This document shows positions 2,923 through 16,000 of a stretch of DNA of 38,238 nt, piece by piece. A model generated the notes under the pieces. That model made no database searches. It was not told the origin of the DNA and was given only the letters and a program-made list of their open reading frames with translations. The stretch comes from a virus, in the IMG/VR virus record IMGVR_UViG_3300038435_000236, positions 1-38,238 of that record; one strand, given 5' to 3'. Both the position numbers and the translations under genes were made by a program. Positions within the stretch are counted from its first letter, which is position 1. Every line of letters begins with the position of its first letter.

Positions 2923-3564
2923 TCAAAACGGAACATCTTCCGGGTCTGTTCCGACGTACTTCTGCCCCCTGGAATCCCCGTCGAACAGGTCTTCATTGCC
3001 GGGTTCTATGTTCTCGTCGAAGTCCTCGTTAACCCGGCTGTTGATCTTGTTCCTGATCCACTCGGGGAGGGCGTTATAGCTCTCCTCGTCGAAGTTGTCG
3101 AGGTCGAACCAGACAGATTTATTGTGTCTGGAAATCCTCTTCGTAAGGGGAACCAGGTCGGGCAGTAATTTTGAAATACTGGTAATATTTGCGTACTTCC
3201 TACCGCCCTTGTCGGTATGCGAAATACCCAGTGTGCACCATTGATCCCGAAGTTTGCTTAAATCGAACTCTTCCAGTTCTTTCTCGGTAAAATCCCTTCC
3301 CCTCCAGGCTTGCAGGTCTTTCCGAAGATTAGAGTTCTCGTGAAGGCTTGCCGTGTAAACTTTGGATATAACGAACGGTCTTCCATCTTCCATCTTCTGC
3401 CGTGGAAGCTCCCACACAATCGCCACCTTTTGTTTGACCTTTGGCTCACCATTAAAGACCTCATCCTGCATTCCAAGATCGGCTACGATGTAGCACACCG
3501 CGAGCGTCGTTTCTTCCGGTGGAAGCTCGTAATTCCCGCCTGTTTCTTTAACCTTAAGTCCCAT
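2923..3564 (-). CDS. Single-stranded DNA-binding-like conserved phage protein
   Basis: A 213-residue protein started at 3564, where AGGAGG precedes the ATG by seven bases; an upstream Met lies inside the neighbouring endonuclease. The N-terminal part alternates strands (ELPPEETTLAVCYIVADLG, KQKVAIVWELP, PFVISKVYTASLHENSNLR), compatible with an OB-fold. The C-terminus is an acidic tail (EDFDENIEPGNEDLFDGD) ending in DPEDVPF. This closely resembles the acidic tip of bacterial SSB (DDDIPF), which recruits replication and repair enzymes. It lies directly upstream of the initiator-like gene, supporting a replication role. The OB-fold call is an inference; the C-terminal tip is seen directly. Confidence 0.55.
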   Translation of the reverse strand: MGLKVKETGGNYELPPEETTLAVCYIVADLGMQDEVFNGEPKVKQKVAIVWELPRQKMEDGRPFVISKVYTASLHENSNLRKDLQAWRGRDFTEKELEEFDLSKLRDQWCTLGISHTDKGGRKYANITSISKLLPDLVPLTKRISRHNKSVWFDLDNFDEESYNALPEWIRNKINSRVNEDFDENIEPGNEDLFDGDSRGQKYVGTDPEDVPF

Positions 3565-8547: not shown

Positions 8548-9231
8548 ATGCATATGACGGATTATCGGCGAAACGGCCTAGGCCAAATTATCAAAGAAAT
8601 AATGGGGGATAGAAAGCAGACGGAGTTTGCTCGGGCCGTAGGCGCAACACAAAGTCAGATATCCAAATACATCAACGGAGCCGAAATTCCTAGTTTTCCT
8701 ATTCTAATACGAATAGCCAGAGAAGGCCGAATGTCTGCGGAAGAGTTGTGGGAGAAGGCAACAGGGGAGATTTTCGAGGGTGAATTGCCTATGATCGATA
8801 TTAATCCGGTTATAACAGAAATCGACAGCGAAAACCTCAAGATAACAGCATATGAAGTAACCGGGGCCGGACCGGAACGAGAAGAGGCCGGCTATGAGCC
8901 GGTTGGCTCCATCATCATTCCAAAGAAGCTCTACAAACCGAACCTTATTGTTTTCAGGGTGGATGGCGACTCGATGGAGAAGTGGATTATGGACAAAACC
9001 TATGTTCTTGTTGATCCGACTCCCCAAAACAAACTATACGATAAAGGCATTTACTGCTTCAAAATTCCCTACTCGGGTTATATAATCCGCCTGGTACATA
9101 CTGAACCGGACGCCTTGTTCCTAGAACCGGTCAACAAACAATACAAGACCCGAAAGATTGCCTGGGGTTCCTTCAATCCTGATTGGGTTCTCGGAAGAGT
9201 GGTAGGGAATCTGATAAACACCTATGTCTAA
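8548..9231 (+). CDS. Phage repressor, HTH plus S24 peptidase-like domain
   Basis: A 227-residue protein. Residues about 22-48 (RKQTEFARAVGATQSQISKY) form a Cro/CI-type HTH. Residues about 118-225 form a LexA/CI-like domain with FRVDGDSMEKWI (Ser142 in the nucleophile position). The usual general-base Lys before Arg-Leu in the final strands is replaced: the segment reads GYIIRLVH, with Ile180 where Lys is expected. Self-cleavage may therefore be absent or use another mechanism. An Ala-Gly pair (107-108, in VTGAGPE) lies where the cleavage site is usually found. It faces the Ner-like gene across two operators. The ATG at 8554 is an equally likely start; no Shine-Dalgarno is visible for either. 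Confidence 0.85.
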   Translation: MHMTDYRRNGLGQIIKEIMGDRKQTEFARAVGATQSQISKYINGAEIPSFPILIRIAREGRMSAEELWEKATGEIFEGELPMIDINPVITEIDSENLKITAYEVTGAGPEREEAGYEPVGSIIIPKKLYKPNLIVFRVDGDSMEKWIMDKTYVLVDPTPQNKLYDKGIYCFKIPYSGYIIRLVHTEPDALFLEPVNKQYKTRKIAWGSFNPDWVLGRVVGNLINTYV

Positions 9232-9289
9232 TGTATTGCTTTATTTAATTAGACGTTGTACCATGTAAATAATGAAGAGGCAATCGTTT

Positions 9290-9742
9290 ATGAAGGTGTG
9301 GATACTAATCGCTCTTTTCTTGTTTGCTTGTGGACCCTCTAAAGAGCAAAAAGAAATGGCGCTCCAGGAATCTGGTCGTGAAACGACGGCCTGCGCCAAT
9401 AACAATACGACATACTTTGATTATGCTGTTTGCATGAATGTGATGGCCGAGAAGTATTTTCGAGCAGTAGATTTTCCTTATCCCGAAGTAATATCCTTAT
9501 CAAACTCATACCATCTGGCTTTGGCTGAGCGGGTCGATGCAGGGGAATTAACTCCTCAACAGGCATTGCAAATCTGGATGCAGCTCCGTAGAGAGTTAAT
9601 CGGACAAGCCTCTGCCGCCAGAAGGGCAGAAGCCCAACGCGCTTCGGAGTGGCGTCAGCTGATCTGGGCTTTGAATACGAATTACGCGATACGCACCCCG
9701 ATCAACTGTATGCAGACAGGAGCTTTCATTACGTGCAACTAA
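9290..9742 (+). CDS. Putative lipoprotein, 150 aa (moron-like)
   Basis: The N-terminus MKVWILIALFLFAC is a short lipoprotein signal with the lipobox LFAC, so the mature protein would be membrane-anchored at that Cys. The helical middle (LTPQQALQIWMQLRRELIG) is followed by a C-terminal hairpin-like INCMQTGAFITCN, the paired-Cys ending common in small bacterial envelope proteins. I start at 9290, where GAGG lies nine bases upstream; an ATG at 9272 gives six more residues but has no ribosome binding site. Placed after the repressor on the same strand, it is a candidate lysogenic-conversion or superinfection-exclusion gene. A weak promoter (TTGCTT-17-TACCAT, 9236-9264) precedes it. Confidence 0.7.
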   Translation: MKVWILIALFLFACGPSKEQKEMALQESGRETTACANNNTTYFDYAVCMNVMAEKYFRAVDFPYPEVISLSNSYHLALAERVDAGELTPQQALQIWMQLRRELIGQASAARRAEAQRASEWRQLIWALNTNYAIRTPINCMQTGAFITCN

Positions 9743-9746
9743 AGTC

Positions 9747-10115
9747 ATGTACAAAATATCACGCACCCTATTTTTTGTAATCGTCCTGCTCAGTTATACA
9801 ACCTTGGCTGGCTGTGTGGATAGGGGCGAGTTGACGAATGCGGTTGAAAATGCAGATTCCGAGTTGTTTCTTTTAGAGAGCGAAATTGATGAATTGAGAA
9901 CGAGATTAGATGATTTGGGGGCAGCCGTAGGAGATTTGACCAACGCCTCCGTCGATTTCGACAACTATGATAGCTGTAACGATTTTGCACAAGAAGTCAT
10001 TGAGTTGAGTGGCAGTATTGAGTTTCATTATTCCGAACTCGAAGATGTGCTGGATAACATCGATATACAAAAAGCCGAACTGGAATACAGCATCCGCTCT
10101 ATAAACAATTTATAA
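9747..10115 (+). CDS. Putative coiled-coil lipoprotein, 122 aa
   Basis: Signal peptide with lipobox LAGC (TTLAGCVDRG), then an almost continuous heptad-rich acidic helix (ELFLLESEIDELRTRLDDLG, ELEDVLDNIDIQKAELEYSI). One conserved-looking Cys remains in the middle (YDSCNDF). It follows the preceding lipoprotein gene by four bases, so both are probably cotranscribed. The design, an anchored Cys plus a long acidic coiled coil, fits a periplasmic spacer or a blocker of envelope receptors. No family recognised; probably expressed from the prophage. Confidence 0.65.
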   Translation: MYKISRTLFFVIVLLSYTTLAGCVDRGELTNAVENADSELFLLESEIDELRTRLDDLGAAVGDLTNASVDFDNYDSCNDFAQEVIELSGSIEFHYSELEDVLDNIDIQKAELEYSIRSINNL

Positions 10116-10129
10116 AAATAATTACCATG

Positions 10130-10159
10130 TTGATTTTCAAGTCCTTCTCGTGCTACAAT
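10130..10159 (+). promoter_or_regulatory. Candidate promoter for the Cys-rich mini-protein
   Basis: TTGATT (10130-10135), 18-bp spacer, TACAAT (10154-10159) on the plus strand, 21 bp before the ATG. It would allow expression independent of the lipoprotein genes. Confidence 0.45.
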
Positions 10160-10180
10160 CAATCTCGGGGAGGATTGTTT

Positions 10181-10372
10181 ATGAAAACCATATTCGCTTT
10201 GGGGCTTTTCGCTGCGTTTTTCCTGTTCCCTGTCGAGGGGAATTATTCGGAGAGAATCGATTTTATCTTTGAGCAGCGCGGCTGTTGCTCGTGGCATGGT
10301 GGGGTTTGCGGATGCGACGGCGGTCGCAAGGTCTGCTGCGACGGGACGTATAGTCCATCCTGCACTTGCTGA
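10181..10372 (+). CDS. Secreted Cys-rich mini-protein, 63 aa
   Basis: A strong GGGGAGG lies seven bases before the ATG. Residues 1-20 (MKTIFALGLFAAFFLFPVEG) are a signal peptide. The mature part has eight Cys in RGCCSWHGGVCGCDGGRKVC, CDGTYSPSC and a final TC. This pattern belongs to a known family of tiny secreted bacterial proteins of unknown function, with four possible disulfides. It ends immediately against the stop of the convergent terL gene. Phage carriage in a post-repressor position suggests a host-fitness or envelope role in lysogens. Confidence 0.75.
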   Translation: MKTIFALGLFAAFFLFPVEGNYSERIDFIFEQRGCCSWHGGVCGCDGGRKVCCDGTYSPSCTC

Positions 10373-13006
10373 TCACCTATACCCCGTTCCGTACTTCTGT
10401 CCCAGGAGCTTACGCCTCTTGTAATAAAGGGATGATTCCCGTCTGCGCTGTGCTTCCGGGGAGTCGTCCCTCTTTTTTCGTGTTATAAAAGCGAGCCGAC
10501 TACATATGTACTGCATAGCATCCATGCAGTTCCCAACCAACACCCCGTTGGCATAAAAGCAATGCTCATTCTCTACAGTGAGATCGTAAACGCGCAACCG
10601 TTCTTTTTTTACTTTCAATCCCACAACTCTTACTACAGGTCTTTGTATTGACGTATTTGTTAACCCTGAATCCTTCTCCGCAGATAAGACAAACCCTCGT
10701 AACGTCATCTTTTCCGGAGAGCGTTCTGGCTTTCTGTTGGCAATAAGGTTTGCAAAATCCCCTTCCGGGTCTTTGTAGGAATGCTTCGTATGGCTTCCCA
10801 CACATAACACATTTAAACTTTTTCTTTTTCCTATTCTCCCATGTTTCTTTTCCGTGTTTTCTATGCCACCCCAGCCCCTCTTCTGATCCGTGCCAAGCTC
10901 TGGCTGCCTCCCGAGCAGCAACGATACCTCGCTGCATTCGCTCTGGATATTTAATATGGTTTGATGTGGCATGATGAGTTGCATGACTGCTGGCTGAAAC
11001 CAACTCCAGATTCTCGATCTTATTGTTTGATTTATCCCCGTCAACATGATGGATGTGGTATTTTTCAGGTATCCCGCCATTGTAATATATCCATACATCG
11101 CGGTGCATATATGTCCCACCGTGCTCGTGGTAGTCGGACTTATAATACCCCGATGGTTTGCGGTAGTATCTGATTCCATCGAAGTCTTGAGGTTCGTATA
11201 TTCTTGGTCGTCCCATAGCATATCATTATAACACAAAGCATCAGCACGTACAATACCCCGAGCCGTGTAGATAGGATGGTTGGCAGTACATCTCAACTCG
11301 TTACCATTACTCAGCTTTATAAGAACTACATAACCTGTATAATCTTGGTTCATTGTGGCCGAAACAACCTGTGTCCCGTTTGGTGTTTTGACACTCTCTC
11401 CTGGATTTAAACGGTCAATTCGTTTTAATCCATTTGGGGTGGAAACAAGGGCATCTCCAGACAAGCAATGGCTAAAGACATCCTTAATCGGCTCTCTTGA
11501 AAATCGCTCATTTGGCAAATCTATGATTTTGTAACGGTATCCTCCCATCATCGCTTCAACTATCTTCGGACAACGCGTTCTGTCGATGAGAATGCCTGGC
11601 ACCCCGTCTATAAGTCTATCCATTGTCTGCACAACTGCATCGTGTCTTAATTGAAACGATTCCTCTCCCGGGATGAGATGTATCCCTATCTTCCGAAGGA
11701 GCCCGGCAGGAGACTGGCCATCCGTCTGTGAAACATGGAATGCCACGGGATCGGTAAAATCTTTTATATCCGCTACCTCTGGGAACATTGTCTGCGTATT
11801 CTTCTGAACATATTCTCCGAATTTCACGACGCCGGGATCTAGCATCATAAATTCAGCCAGTATTATCAGCACCCCCCTTGAGTCGAGCTGCGCTACGACA
11901 CACGCCTTGTTCTTGGCCGTAGGACCAATATCCCACCCTCTCAGCAATGGAAGTTTTTTATTGTACTCAAGGGGCTTCTCGGATACATGTAGGTTGTAAT
12001 TGAAATTCTTGTATATCGGCTCGCCGTCCGGGGGGATGAATCCGAGCCGTCCGTAGAGGAACGAATTTCTCCAGTATTCCGGGCTGGCCTCCAGCGCCTC
12101 GATGTAATCCTTCGGAAGATTCCGTCTGTTCTCGTATGCCGAACTTGCATAAACGGAGTGCTCCTGCGGGTCCTGGATATTGCTGTCGTCCGTGTATTTC
12201 CTCTCCCACCATCTCTTGTGAATCCACGTTCCCTCGGAGGGCGGGTTCCCGCCGACCATCATCTTCCTGTCCTCGCTCTTCCCGACAATTCCCCACCTGC
12301 CGACCCTGTTCCTGACGGCCATCGCGATTCGTTCCTCGACGCCGACTACCTCGTCTATCCCAGCCCAGTCTATTTCCAGCGACTGTAAGTCCTCGATAGC
12401 CGCCTGTATGTCCTGCCCTTCGTTCTTCGCCGGGCGGTAGAGGATTTCACTCTTCTTGTTCCCGACGTACAGCTCTATGAGCTTCCGGCTGATATGATGG
12501 TTATAAAGCTCTCCCGATTTCCAGCCGAAGTAATTGAACACCTTGAACATCGTGGCGATCGTGGTGTCCATGAGCTGCGGGTATGTCGCCCTCATGAGAA
12601 GCCCGCGCGTTCCGGGGTAGTGAAGGGAAAGCCATATGCCCTTTAAGACGATGATAAGCGATTTCCCGCTGCCGAACGCCCCGAAGTAGGCCGGGAATCT
12701 CTCCGGGCCCCAGAAGAAGCGGAATTGCTTAGGGCGAAAGAGGTACGCCTTGATTATCTTGCACTTGTTGAGGTCGGCGTGATCGCTCACCCCCCACGCC
12801 CAGCCGACGCGGACAGCCGCCTTCTGGTCCTCGAAGTCGAGGTCTTCGAACCGGAGGTCGTATATATCCTCCACCTCGATTTCGAGGTCTTTCTCTGGGT
12901 CCTGTATAATCCGGCCCCGGTATTTGTCTACCAGGTATCCGGTTCTTGTGCGGAAGTTGTAAAAGTCATTGGCGGTAAGTACCCTGCCCGGGTCGAAAGA
13001 GCTCAT
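10373..13006 (-). CDS. terL: Terminase large subunit interrupted by an intein
   Basis: An 877-codon frame. Residues 1-513 plus 827-877 form a 564-residue TerL, the packaging motor and headful/cos nuclease. Visible motifs: Walker A GAFGSGKS (109-116), Walker B EIDWAGIDEV (211-220) and nuclease strand RGWDIG (Asp359), with a probable second acidic site around DPVAFH (Asp419). The last nuclease motif is SH/CMDAMQYICSRL, split after His by the intein (residues 514-826); the acid Asp829 lies in the C-extein. Without protein splicing this nuclease site would be destroyed. It is the last gene of the late operon and overlaps the upstream gene by 41 bp. The ATG at 13006 has only an adjacent AGGGA. Confidence 0.9.
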   Translation of the reverse strand: MSSFDPGRVLTANDFYNFRTRTGYLVDKYRGRIIQDPEKDLEIEVEDIYDLRFEDLDFEDQKAAVRVGWAWGVSDHADLNKCKIIKAYLFRPKQFRFFWGPERFPAYFGAFGSGKSLIIVLKGIWLSLHYPGTRGLLMRATYPQLMDTTIATMFKVFNYFGWKSGELYNHHISRKLIELYVGNKKSEILYRPAKNEGQDIQAAIEDLQSLEIDWAGIDEVVGVEERIAMAVRNRVGRWGIVGKSEDRKMMVGGNPPSEGTWIHKRWWERKYTDDSNIQDPQEHSVYASSAYENRRNLPKDYIEALEASPEYWRNSFLYGRLGFIPPDGEPIYKNFNYNLHVSEKPLEYNKKLPLLRGWDIGPTAKNKACVVAQLDSRGVLIILAEFMMLDPGVVKFGEYVQKNTQTMFPEVADIKDFTDPVAFHVSQTDGQSPAGLLRKIGIHLIPGEESFQLRHDAVVQTMDRLIDGVPGILIDRTRCPKIVEAMMGGYRYKIIDLPNERFSREPIKDVFSHCLSGDALVSTPNGLKRIDRLNPGESVKTPNGTQVVSATMNQDYTGYVVLIKLSNGNELRCTANHPIYTARGIVRADALCYNDMLWDDQEYTNLKTSMESDTTANHRGIISPTTTSTVGHICTAMYGYITMAGYLKNTTSIMLTGINQTIRSRIWSWFQPAVMQLIMPHQTILNIQSECSEVSLLLGRQPELGTDQKRGWGGIENTEKKHGRIGKRKSLNVLCVGSHTKHSYKDPEGDFANLIANRKPERSPEKMTLRGFVLSAEKDSGLTNTSIQRPVVRVVGLKVKKERLRVYDLTVENEHCFYANGVLVGNCMDAMQYICSRLAFITRKKRDDSPEAQRRRESSLYYKRRKLLGQKYGTGYR
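10566..11216 (-). CDS. HNH endonuclease nested out of frame inside the intein
   Basis: A complete 216-residue protein on the same strand as terL but in another frame. It begins MGRPRIYEPQDFDGIRYY, then carries the HNH_3-type core IHHVDGDKSNNKIENLE (residues 55-71; His56/57, Asn65 and Asn69). Its C-terminal half has two zinc-ribbon-like Cys sets (C136/C139/C155/C159 and C176/C179/C194/C198, in CVMCG, FCKPYC, CLICG and TCSKSC). These features are too specific to be a shadow of the intein frame. Stops lie two and three codons upstream, so the ATG at 11216 is the only start. No Shine-Dalgarno exists, but a TATAAT ends eight bases before the ATG. It probably cuts intein-less terL and so spreads the intein. 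Confidence 0.85.
   Translation of the reverse strand: MGRPRIYEPQDFDGIRYYRKPSGYYKSDYHEHGGTYMHRDVWIYYNGGIPEKYHIHHVDGDKSNNKIENLELVSASSHATHHATSNHIKYPERMQRGIVAAREAARAWHGSEEGLGWHRKHGKETWENRKKKKFKCVMCGKPYEAFLQRPGRGFCKPYCQQKARTLSGKDDVTRVCLICGEGFRVNKYVNTKTCSKSCGIESKKRTVARLRSHCRE
11225..11253 (-). promoter_or_regulatory. Promoter for the nested HNH gene, inside the intein
   Basis: Minus strand TTGTAC (11248-11253), exactly 17 bp, TATAAT (11225-11230). Only eight bases separate the -10 from the ATG at 11216, so the predicted transcript would start at or next to the ATG (leaderless). Confidence 0.65.
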
Positions 13007-16000
13007 TCCCTGTCATTTTCCTTGCCCGCCCTATGATGTTTTGTATTGCCTTTTTCTTTATCTCGTCCGGCATCCTCTGATATTCCGGGCTCTGCACAAG
13101 CCGTGTAACAGCCTCATGCGCCCGCTGGCCGGAAATCTTGACGTACTGCACATACTGCTCTCTGTCCAGCTTTCCAATGTGCTTATACTCCCTCCCCGGC
13201 GGGCTTACGTTTCTGAACGTCTCGTCCTCCGGGAGAGTTTCAAATAGCCTGTTGACCTCCAGGGTCGCCGGGTCGCTTGTAAGCTCCCTGATTCGGAGAG
13301 GGCTGCTCATCCCATCCAAAATCTGTCCGGTTAGTCCGAGGTCGATTCCGGCAGCCGCAGCCATTCTCTGTACAACCCCGGCCTCCGTGACCACATCTCG
13401 CCCCCATATATCCATGACAGGCTCCATATCTCCCCGGAGTCCCGGCAGGTTCCCCCTGAATGCATCCTCAAGCGTTTGTACTCGTCTGACAGTCGGGTCG
13501 AGTCCTGTCGCAACGCCACGCGTCAAGGACGAAAAAGGCAGGAACCCTGCCGCCGTTCTGTAGGTTCCCGTCTTGGCTTTTTCCAGGTCGCCGGTCATAA
13601 GGTTGAGAAATGTGTCAAACCCCATACCGAAGGATTTCTCCGTTAGGTTTCTGCCGATGGAGCGCCCCAGACCGACCGCCATCTCCCCTGAAAGCACCGG
13701 GACCCCGGCTTCAACCGCATCCGCCGTATCCGCCATAACCCCGAGTATTGTGGAAATCGGCTCGAAGTTCTGAAACGAAATAGATTGGCCGCCGATGTTA
13801 AGGGCGTATCTCTGTCGCCCGCTGGAAAGAAACGCCTTCTCTTCTCCCGATCTTTCCGGAGGGCCGAACCCGTTTATCATTCCCTGCTTATGCGCCAGGA
13901 AAACGCCCCCGGCGATCATCGTTCCCATTGCCGTCTTGGCAAGCTCATCCGTCCAGTCCACGGGGAGCCCCTGGGATTTCCTGTTCAGGATCGAGAGAAT
14001 GTTCACTCCGGGAATCCTTTCTATTCCGAACTCCATAATATTGAGCGGCGTTCTAACGAACGGGAGGAAGTATCTCAGGAGGGGTATACTATCCCGTGCC
14101 CCTATGAGTCCTCGTCCGGCTTTTCCGGAGGGCGTCTGGAACGTACGAATAAGCGCCTCGTTCCTTGCCGCCTTCATGATCGGGTCGGTCGGGTTATAGC
14201 GAAGATGGTTGTAGAGATCGAGTATCTGTTCCGGTTTCCAGTTGTTCTGTCGTCCGATATTCCGCGCTTCCCGGTATGCGCGGGCATTTAGTTCCATTCT
14301 GTAGGCCACGGCTTTAAAGAAATCGTCCGTCGCCATGAGCGCCCGGGAGGGAACGCGGACTATCCGCCCCTTTGTTCCCCGAATCGCTCCGCCTATCCTC
14401 TGCGTTGGGAGGTCCGACATTATCCCCGCCTCAAGGCCGAACTGTGGGACTTCCGATCTGAATGATTTCAGTCCGGCATGTATCCCTTCGCGCGTTCCTT
14501 CTATCAGGCCGAAGGCGCTCTTGAGCGATTCGGAGAAATATCTCTCCCTCTGCCGTCCCGTCATAACAGCGCGCCCGGCGTCCACTGCTGCGGCTAGAGG
14601 TCTTTCCCCCTCACGCACGAGAATTACCCCGAGGTTCCCGAGGATGTTTCTCCCCTGGGTACCGATTCCAGAGAGGACGCTGTTGTAAAACACTTCGTCT
14701 ATTTTCTCTCTGGTTGTAGCATGTACGAGGTCCCGGAGAAATATCTGCCGTGCTGTTGGGTCGAATACGTCTATCTGGCTTATCCGTGTCGCTATCTGGT
14801 CGAGATTCGCATCCTTTCCGATTACCTTGTTCACTTCCCGGAGAAACCTTTCCTCCATTCCCCATTCGCCGGTCGCCTTGATTCTCCGGGAGCCGAGGGC
14901 TCGCCCGAACTCCGAGCTGATCCCGCCGACTTTCCTCAACAGACGAAGATCGGTTATAAGCGCGCCTCTAAGCGCTTCCCTGTCCCCTTTCCCGTCGGCT
15001 ACCAGCTTTGCGAGGTTCATCGTCTCGCCTTCCATGTGGTTCTTGAGAACGTTCTCGGCCGCGATAACCTCCGAGGCTATCTTTCTTATATCCCCCTCCG
15101 GGGTGCCGCCTCTCGTCGGGTTATAGTCTTCGAGGAATTTGTCTATCGTGCCGGTGCTGAACCTCCGAGCACGTTCCTTGAGCACGTCGAAAGCAACTGT
15201 CTCATTCGGAATCTGAAACTCCGGCGATTCTCTGACGGCGTTGTCTATAAGATTCGAAAGTTCATCATCGTCCAGCCGGGAGATATTTATATTCTTGAGT
15301 GTGCGTTTCGCAGGATCGCGGGCAAGATCGGAAACCACCGCCGCTTCGTCGAAGTCAGAGGGGAGCACCCTTTCGTTAGTCGCAACTCGTCTGATGGCAT
15401 TTGCAGACTCGTCGTATATCTGCCGCAGGTGCGGTCTTATCGCTTCCCCGAAGTCGTCTATCATGCGGGCGGACCAGTCCGCGAACTCGCGTATTCCTCC
15501 TTCGAGATAGTAGCCGCCCACTTTTACGAGGTCGGAGAGGTCCGAAGGGTCGATACCCGCCCTGAGTTGCTTGCTCTTCTTCCGCAGATTCTCCGCTGCC
15601 TGTGTATATATTTCTTGCGTAAAAAGAGTGTTCTTGGCTCCGAAGTAAGACCCGATCTGTGACCCGGTCGGTGCATTGTCGGGAATATTAAAATATGCTT
15701 TTCCCAACGTCCCCGGTTCATTTGGAGCGGTGAAATTCATCGGCGTATCCATTCTCGCTGCGGGTGATTGGAATGTGGTATCGATCAACGATTCGGGTGG
15801 ACGCGACGCAGCCGCGAAGTTCTGCCCGGTCGGCATCATCAGTCTTGCCACGGGCGCATTGGGGTCTATCGCGGGGAACGCGTCATCGGCGGCCCTCGGT
15901 ATCTGCCCGGCAACGTCTTCCATCTCGCCGATCAGGTTGTCGAGGGCGCTCGTACCTTTGAGGGATTTCCCCATATTGATATATGCCTTGTTAACAGCTT

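Follow-up and report, generated by a model that had tools for sequence, protein, structure and literature searches.

Phage terminase inteins with a probable HNH homing endonuclease gene encoded out of frame within the splicing domain

Inteins have so far been viewed as elements with an endonuclease in frame, as mini-inteins, or as split inteins. Large canonical inteins carry their endonuclease in the same reading frame as the splicing domain; these endonucleases are of the LAGLIDADG type, e.g. PI-SceI, and rarely HNH. Known HNH endonucleases of the I-HmuI type sit in group I introns or occur as separate genes. Natural split inteins such as gp41-1 and NrdJ-1 are found in fractured genes (Dassa et al., 2009, cited in PMC10448857). 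An HNH gene that is out of frame with its host gene has been reported in ShiLan, where the insert lacks a splicing domain and is thought to stay in the host protein as a loop, having once been suspected to be an RNA-level intron (PMC11855218). Applejack carries another out-of-frame HNH insertion without a splicing domain (PMC12613952). In the literature that we searched, no description was found of an out-of-frame endonuclease within an intact intein; a partial earlier description is not excluded (Dassa et al., 2009, and Gosselin et al., bioRxiv 2025.01.02.630785, on non-canonical actinobacteriophage inteins, lay outside the search).

The locus studied here lies in a viral DNA of 38,238 nucleotides (IMG/VR record IMGVR_UViG_3300038435_000236, positions 1 to 38,238), hereafter the window. 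The original prediction, made from the sequence alone, was that the terL open reading frame encodes an 877-residue precursor with an intein at 10529-11467, and that a 216-residue HNH protein is encoded by the same DNA in another frame of the same strand. Both reading frames and the intein limits held exactly, and the features of the locus are as follows.

10373..13006 (-): terL open reading frame, 877-residue precursor; Terminase_3 E 4.9e-9 (Pfam), phrog_2 E 1.2e-24
11468-13006 (-): TerL N-extein
10376-10528 (-): TerL C-extein
10529..11467 (-): intein, 313 residues, at the TerL nuclease motif FSH|C...GN|CMDAMQY; C1, block B TxxH, terminal Asn and Cys+1 conserved
11225..11470 (-): N-terminal half of the splicing (Hint) domain, blocks A to B; IntN profile match, pLDDT 95-98
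10529..10588 (-): C-terminal splicing blocks F and G, VYDLTVENEHCFYANGVLVGN; IntC profile, intein_Cterm, pLDDT ~95
10566..11216 (-): complete HNH homing endonuclease gene, 216 residues, out of frame with terL; open reading frame, HNH_3, phrog_15471, AlphaFold2 pLDDT 95.5
10980..11111 (-): HNH_3 catalytic core, residues 36-79; Pfam
10740..10811 (-): first Cys4 zinc motif, C136, C139, C155 and C159, invariant in 58 homologues
10623..10691 (-): second Cys4 zinc motif, C176, C179, C194 and C198
11217..11236 (-): leader of the HNH start codon, TTGTGTTATAATGATATGCT-ATG, without a Shine-Dalgarno sequence

Elsewhere in the window, an open reading frame at 8548-9231 (+) was judged by eye to have a helix-turn-helix-like N-terminus and an S24 peptidase-like C-terminus, as in a repressor, and the phage is possibly temperate.

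The intein runs from C1 at 11467 to the last Asn codon at 10529-10531, which is followed by the +1 Cys (...FSH|CLSGDALV...TANH...VYDLTVENEHCFYANGVLVGN|CMDAMQY). All residues of a class 1 intein (Cys1, block B TxxH, terminal Asn and Cys+1) are thus present, and in an alignment of 55 inteins C1, H70 and N319 are invariant and C320 nearly so. The splicing domain is recognised by Pfam (Intein_splicing, E 3.6e-12) and NCBIfam (intein_Nterm, 1.2e-6; intein_Cterm, 1.4e-7). AlphaFold2 gives a confident Hint fold at both ends of the intein frame (pLDDT 95-98), and the double-coding middle has pLDDT values of mostly 38-60, with one helical piece near 80. The closest solved structure by both sequence and fold is gp41-1 (fold search E 1.1e-6, prob 1.00), with NrdJ-1 also among the nearest solved inteins. 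A Gly, rather than a His, precedes the last Asn, and splicing may possibly be slower as a result. No match to an endonuclease family was found in the intein frame of 55 nested members (the window and 54 homologues). The prediction of clear splicing blocks around a middle without an in-frame endonuclease signature therefore held.

The HNH gene starts 1790 nt past the TerL start (1790 mod 3 = 2), and is thus on the same strand in a different frame. It begins right after block B and overlaps block F by ~9 codons, occupying the spot where an in-frame endonuclease usually sits. Its product matches Pfam HNH_3 (E 1.7e-16) and, over residues 20-205, phrog_15471 (E 7.4e-35), and is modelled with a mean pLDDT of 95.5. 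HNH_3 was matched in 58/58 homologues, in which H56, H57, D59, N64, N65, H78 and most cysteines are invariant. The nearest solved structure is I-HmuI (sequence E 2.2e-5; fold E 0.008, prob 0.85). The description of a complete HNH protein with an HNH_3 core and two Cys4-like motifs was therefore also upheld.

Compared with the known systems, the locus shares class 1 Hint blocks and an endonuclease region between blocks B and F with large canonical inteins. However, no nested member of the family described below encodes its endonuclease in the intein frame; the enzyme requires a separate translation start and is absent from the excised protein. Like fractured genes, it combines an intein with a separate endonuclease gene between the intein halves, and its nearest solved intein is gp41-1, but IntN and IntC are in one open reading frame with 0 stops (the window and 122 further loci) and the endonuclease is superposed on it. 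The resemblance to ShiLan lies in a zinc-finger HNH that is out of frame, an insertion that is open in the host frame, and a patchy, homing-like distribution; unlike in ShiLan, a complete Hint domain surrounds the HNH and the host protein is the essential terminase. By profile and by nearest fold, the HNH belongs with the I-HmuI-type HNH_3 family and with the free-standing HNH genes beside terL (phrog_15471), whereas its position inside the coding frame of an intein sets it apart from their known members.

Relatives were collected by tblastn with the HNH protein, followed by scans of IMG/VR and GTDB with HNH alignments, which gave 183 HNH-bearing loci, most of them metagenomic. A locus was called nested when IntN and IntC were found in one TerL frame with zero stops and with the HNH between them, the IntC profile having been rebuilt to take in divergent inteins, including those with the HNH in the second phase. 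On this definition 123 loci are nested (118 groups at 80% HNH identity), 20 are split, 31 have no recognised intein, and the remainder are truncated or unresolved. The HNH is in the same phase as in the window in 117/123 nested loci and in the opposite phase in six (L052, L059, L074, L085, L094 and L175), where ~18 stops would be expected and none is present. It is in frame with the intein in none. Among the tblastn matches, relatives lie beneath annotated terL genes in Tetrasphaera phage TJE1, Acinetobacter phage Highwayman and Rhodobacteraceae phage MD07, and also in an unannotated fecal phage contig; in all four terL is one open frame over the HNH, whose phase is that of the window. Genome records with nested loci include Parabacteroides, Piscinibacter sakaiensis, Simkania and a Thermoplasmatales archaeon MAG. 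Nothing closely related to the window itself emerged from scans in which its own proteins were used singly as queries, and the wider family is therefore the basis of every comparison.

A scan with the intein as the query, whose ranking prefers inteins of similar length and in which some contigs duplicate earlier ones, found an HNH in the same phase at 73/77 loci. Three of the 77, near-identical to each other, have an intein frame closed by stops. The last, L254, is a 128-residue mini-intein without an HNH at the same TerL site (3001-3432), which may represent a compact splicing domain.

All of the 66 nested inteins examined for position lie at the C-terminal (nuclease) motif of TerL, in slightly different registers. 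Some terL genes hold two elements. L075 (6588 nt; inteins at 106-945 and 1798-2715) and L108 (1727-2749 and 3173-4135) each have two TerL inteins at different sites, and every intein holds an out-of-frame HNH of its own, the phase being the same. The TerL of L063, L086 and L181 has an upstream intein near Walker A with an in-frame LAGLIDADG, and a downstream one with an out-of-frame HNH. These three loci act as a built-in control, in that the in-frame and out-of-frame layouts coexist. In L054 (1218-3712) a complete terL is followed by an HNH and then by a duplicate of the terL 3' end whose frame is open, an arrangement that could be a former nested element beside a restored terL.

Selection on the two frames was assessed with a null in which the HNH protein was held fixed and its codons were redrawn from each locus's own codon usage. 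For the main phase, 0 stops were observed in the intein frame against 4.06 expected (n=113 cluster representatives, summed log10 P = -231), and for the opposite phase 0 against 17.9 (n=5 representatives). The remaining alternative frame of the nested loci has 18.0 stops where 17.0 are expected, and relatives that are split or free-standing show no stop avoidance either (6.5 observed vs 5.6 expected; 18.6 vs 16.1). Stop avoidance is thus confined to the intein frame of nested loci. Although nested loci are defined by zero stops, the distribution of stops is strongly bimodal rather than having a tail: among same-frame relatives outside the definition, counts of 7-17 stops are the rule, with two low values (2 and 3). 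The window alone would be expected to have 5.7 stops and has 0 (P ~0.001 or less). In close nested pairs, substitutions concentrate at HNH codon position 3, which is position 2 of the intein frame; in the pair L064/L067, positions 1, 2 and 3 of the HNH codons carry 36, 34 and 71 substitutions. As substitutions pile up at HNH third positions and stops are absent from the intein frame, it is the HNH frame that is selected for its amino acids and the intein frame for staying open. The main phase has ~1/4 of the intrinsic stops of the other, which explains why it is preferred.

These results bear on the remaining parts of the original prediction. The probability that the intein frame stays open over the HNH gene had been put at (61/64)^195, of order 1 in 10,000; the arithmetic held, and the stricter codon-usage null gives the value stated above for the window. 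The inference that selection keeps both frames open is supported, with the synonymous-codon test finding stop avoidance only in the nested intein frame. Relatives with and without the HNH had been proposed as a check, and both were found, as the 123 nested loci, the mini-intein L254 and intein-less empty sites. It had also been said that homologues with the HNH in frame with the splicing blocks, or close relatives with stops in either frame, would refute the design. The former do not occur (0/123), and stop-filled relatives are split inteins with IntC in its own open reading frame, a sister arrangement that is not a refutation. What needed correction was the view of the locus as a single oddity, since it belongs to a widespread class that uses both alternative phases. 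The claim that the design is undescribed held in part, in that out-of-frame HNH genes without a splicing domain had already been published (PMC11855218). Within the literature searched, the nested out-of-frame HNH intein is likely an undescribed form of mobile intein.

The HNH genes have the means for a translation start of their own. A start codon lies ahead of the HNH homology in 66/66 nested loci tested, the best candidate being ATG in 56, GTG in 7 and TTG in 3, and GGAGG is present in many of the leaders. A Shine-Dalgarno energy of <= -4.5 kcal/mol was found for 55% of nested HNH starts compared with 25% of matched random codons, the highest of 500 simulations giving 41%. The closest in-frame stop upstream of the HNH homology is at a median distance of 8 codons, and 3 in the window.

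Evidence for mobility comes from the terL of Acinetobacter phage Highwayman, which equals that of Acba_21 plus exactly 981 bp, so that DNHYIDA|LRYA becomes DNHYIDA|C...HN|CRYA. Acinetobacter phage records matching the Highwayman terL number 42, and the insert is covered only by Highwayman itself. All 11 mismatches between the two phages over ~2.9 kb fall between -166 and +10 of the insertion. Before them, 394 nt upstream and the initial 1052 nt of terL show no difference, and after them the next 74 nt of terL and ~1.39 kb beyond (~1.46 kb) are likewise identical. With mismatches placed uniformly, the observed clustering was reproduced 0 times in 200,000 trials. The converted tract also provides the Cys+1 that is required for splicing. 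Such a pattern is the signature of homing with co-conversion, read from sequence alone and for one phage pair only. The TerL of BP10 was considered as an empty-site comparison for Highwayman and rejected, the relationship not being close enough. Empty-site searches found no intein-less close relatives for the TJE1, Piscinibacter and Selenomonadaceae loci.

The same HNH family also occurs outside nested inteins. Free-standing relatives adjoin terL in Yuavirus, Exiguobacterium and Brevundimonas phages, among others, and in Lactobacillus CL2 and Vibrio 1.238 the HNH lies between the halves of split TerL inteins. In the split TerL inteins of L117 (4491), L089 (4617), L055 (4483) and L023 (2117), the start of a short IntC gene falls within the HNH gene or at its end, and some of these IntC genes have strong ribosome-binding sites. 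In L016 (Brochothrix phage BL3, 2196-2604) a degenerate HNH remnant lies between IntN and IntC, and the intein frame has only 2 stops. Across the split loci, IntC is in the nested phase in 17/20 and both halves are in 8/20. As most split loci keep IntC in the nested phase, it is suggested that split genes derive from nested ones, a direction that is not proven. In the HNH tree, which has many weak branches, nested loci are widely scattered, with free-standing and split ones among them; the nested label needs ~12 changes, and the group with the opposite phase clusters with a free-standing gene. No reliable ordering of the nested, split and free-standing states could be drawn from this tree. The existence of two phases of the nested HNH does imply that the nested design arose at least twice.

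Taken together, the loci are very likely bipartite mobile inteins in which the splicing domain and the endonuclease are superposed in the DNA instead of joined in one protein. The architecture, its conservation, the stop avoidance, the separate start codons and the precise insertion with a co-conversion tract are shown by our data, and splicing, internal translation and cleavage are inferred. Under this model, ribosomes reading terL would make a precursor with a class-1-type Hint intein, the middle of which is predicted to be a mostly unstructured linker, and the intein would excise itself to leave a working TerL. Initiation by other ribosomes in the second frame, at an internal ATG, GTG or TTG directly downstream of block B, would yield a separate HNH protein with two Cys4 zinc modules. 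In co-infecting phages whose terL lacks the intein, this protein would cut the gene at the insertion site, and repair of the break would copy the whole intein-HNH unit plus flanking DNA. Selection on the middle would be asymmetric, acting on the HNH frame for amino acids and on the intein frame only for the absence of stops.

Several other explanations need to be considered. Sequencing or assembly frameshifts could have displaced an HNH that is truly an in-frame fusion in an ordinary intein, and canonical inteins do hold their endonuclease in frame, as is seen for the LAGLIDADG inteins of L063, L086 and L181. However, the pair of open frames recurs at 123 loci, drawn from unrelated assemblies and from deposited phage records, with only 6 outside the main phase and 0 in frame, and the stop avoidance is specific to the intein frame, so that this explanation can for practical purposes be discarded. 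An RNA-level intron can be set aside with similar firmness. Phage terL genes can hold introns (ICP1, PMC10448857), and HNH endonucleases often ride on group I introns (I-HmuI). Against this, the Hint blocks A, B, F and G are intact with Cys+1 and give a confident Hint fold, the frame is kept open against stops, and no Rfam intron at E<=1 was found in positions 9000-14500 of the window.

It is also conceivable that the HNH has no start of its own and is made by programmed ribosomal frameshifting as a TerL-IntN-HNH fusion. The dominant phase does correspond to a -1 shift, and the HNH start of the window lacks a Shine-Dalgarno sequence. We nevertheless consider this highly improbable: start codons are available at every nested locus tested (66/66) with Shine-Dalgarno strength well above matched random codons, the nearby upstream stops (median 8 codons; 3 in the window) leave scant room for a shift site, although we have no data on slippery motifs, a second group of loci uses the other phase, and the same HNH has free-standing relatives. 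Domestication of the HNH as a packaging or TerL-regulating nuclease, with homing lost and the overlap a relic, is less easily dismissed but still improbable. HNH genes beside terL aid cos cleavage in HK97 (PMC10448857), free-standing relatives of the window HNH adjoin terL in several phages, and a TerL-related role is not excluded. Domestication is at odds with the patchy presence, exact empty site and co-conversion tract in Acinetobacter phages, with insertion at several positions in TerL, where one gene can hold two copies, and with the existence of a mini-intein without an HNH (L254).

A bolder reading of the bipartite mobile intein is that superposition ranks as a third basic means of linking splicing to homing, beside in-frame fusion and separate genes, and that superposed inteins are also a main evolutionary source of natural split inteins; this could equally turn out to be right or wrong. 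A stop arising over the HNH in the intein frame, together with the appearance of a start before IntC, would turn a nested element into a fractured gene. Support comes from the phases of the split loci, the low stop counts (2 and 3) beside those of 7-17, and the presence of gp41-1 and NrdJ-1 among the nearest solved inteins. This support does not tip the balance, and the HNH tree does not settle the direction.

The nested loci add a widespread further layout to those known for inteins, one in which one frame encodes a catalytic enzyme and the other a linker that mainly needs to be free of stops. With them, a path to split inteins and fractured genes becomes open to testing, and overlapping genes under one-sided selection can be studied as a natural experiment, one group lacking ~18 expected stops. 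Mini versions may supply new splicing domains. For annotation they call for caution, as gene callers that give only the long TerL frame miss the endonuclease, as in the records of TJE1, Highwayman and MD07.
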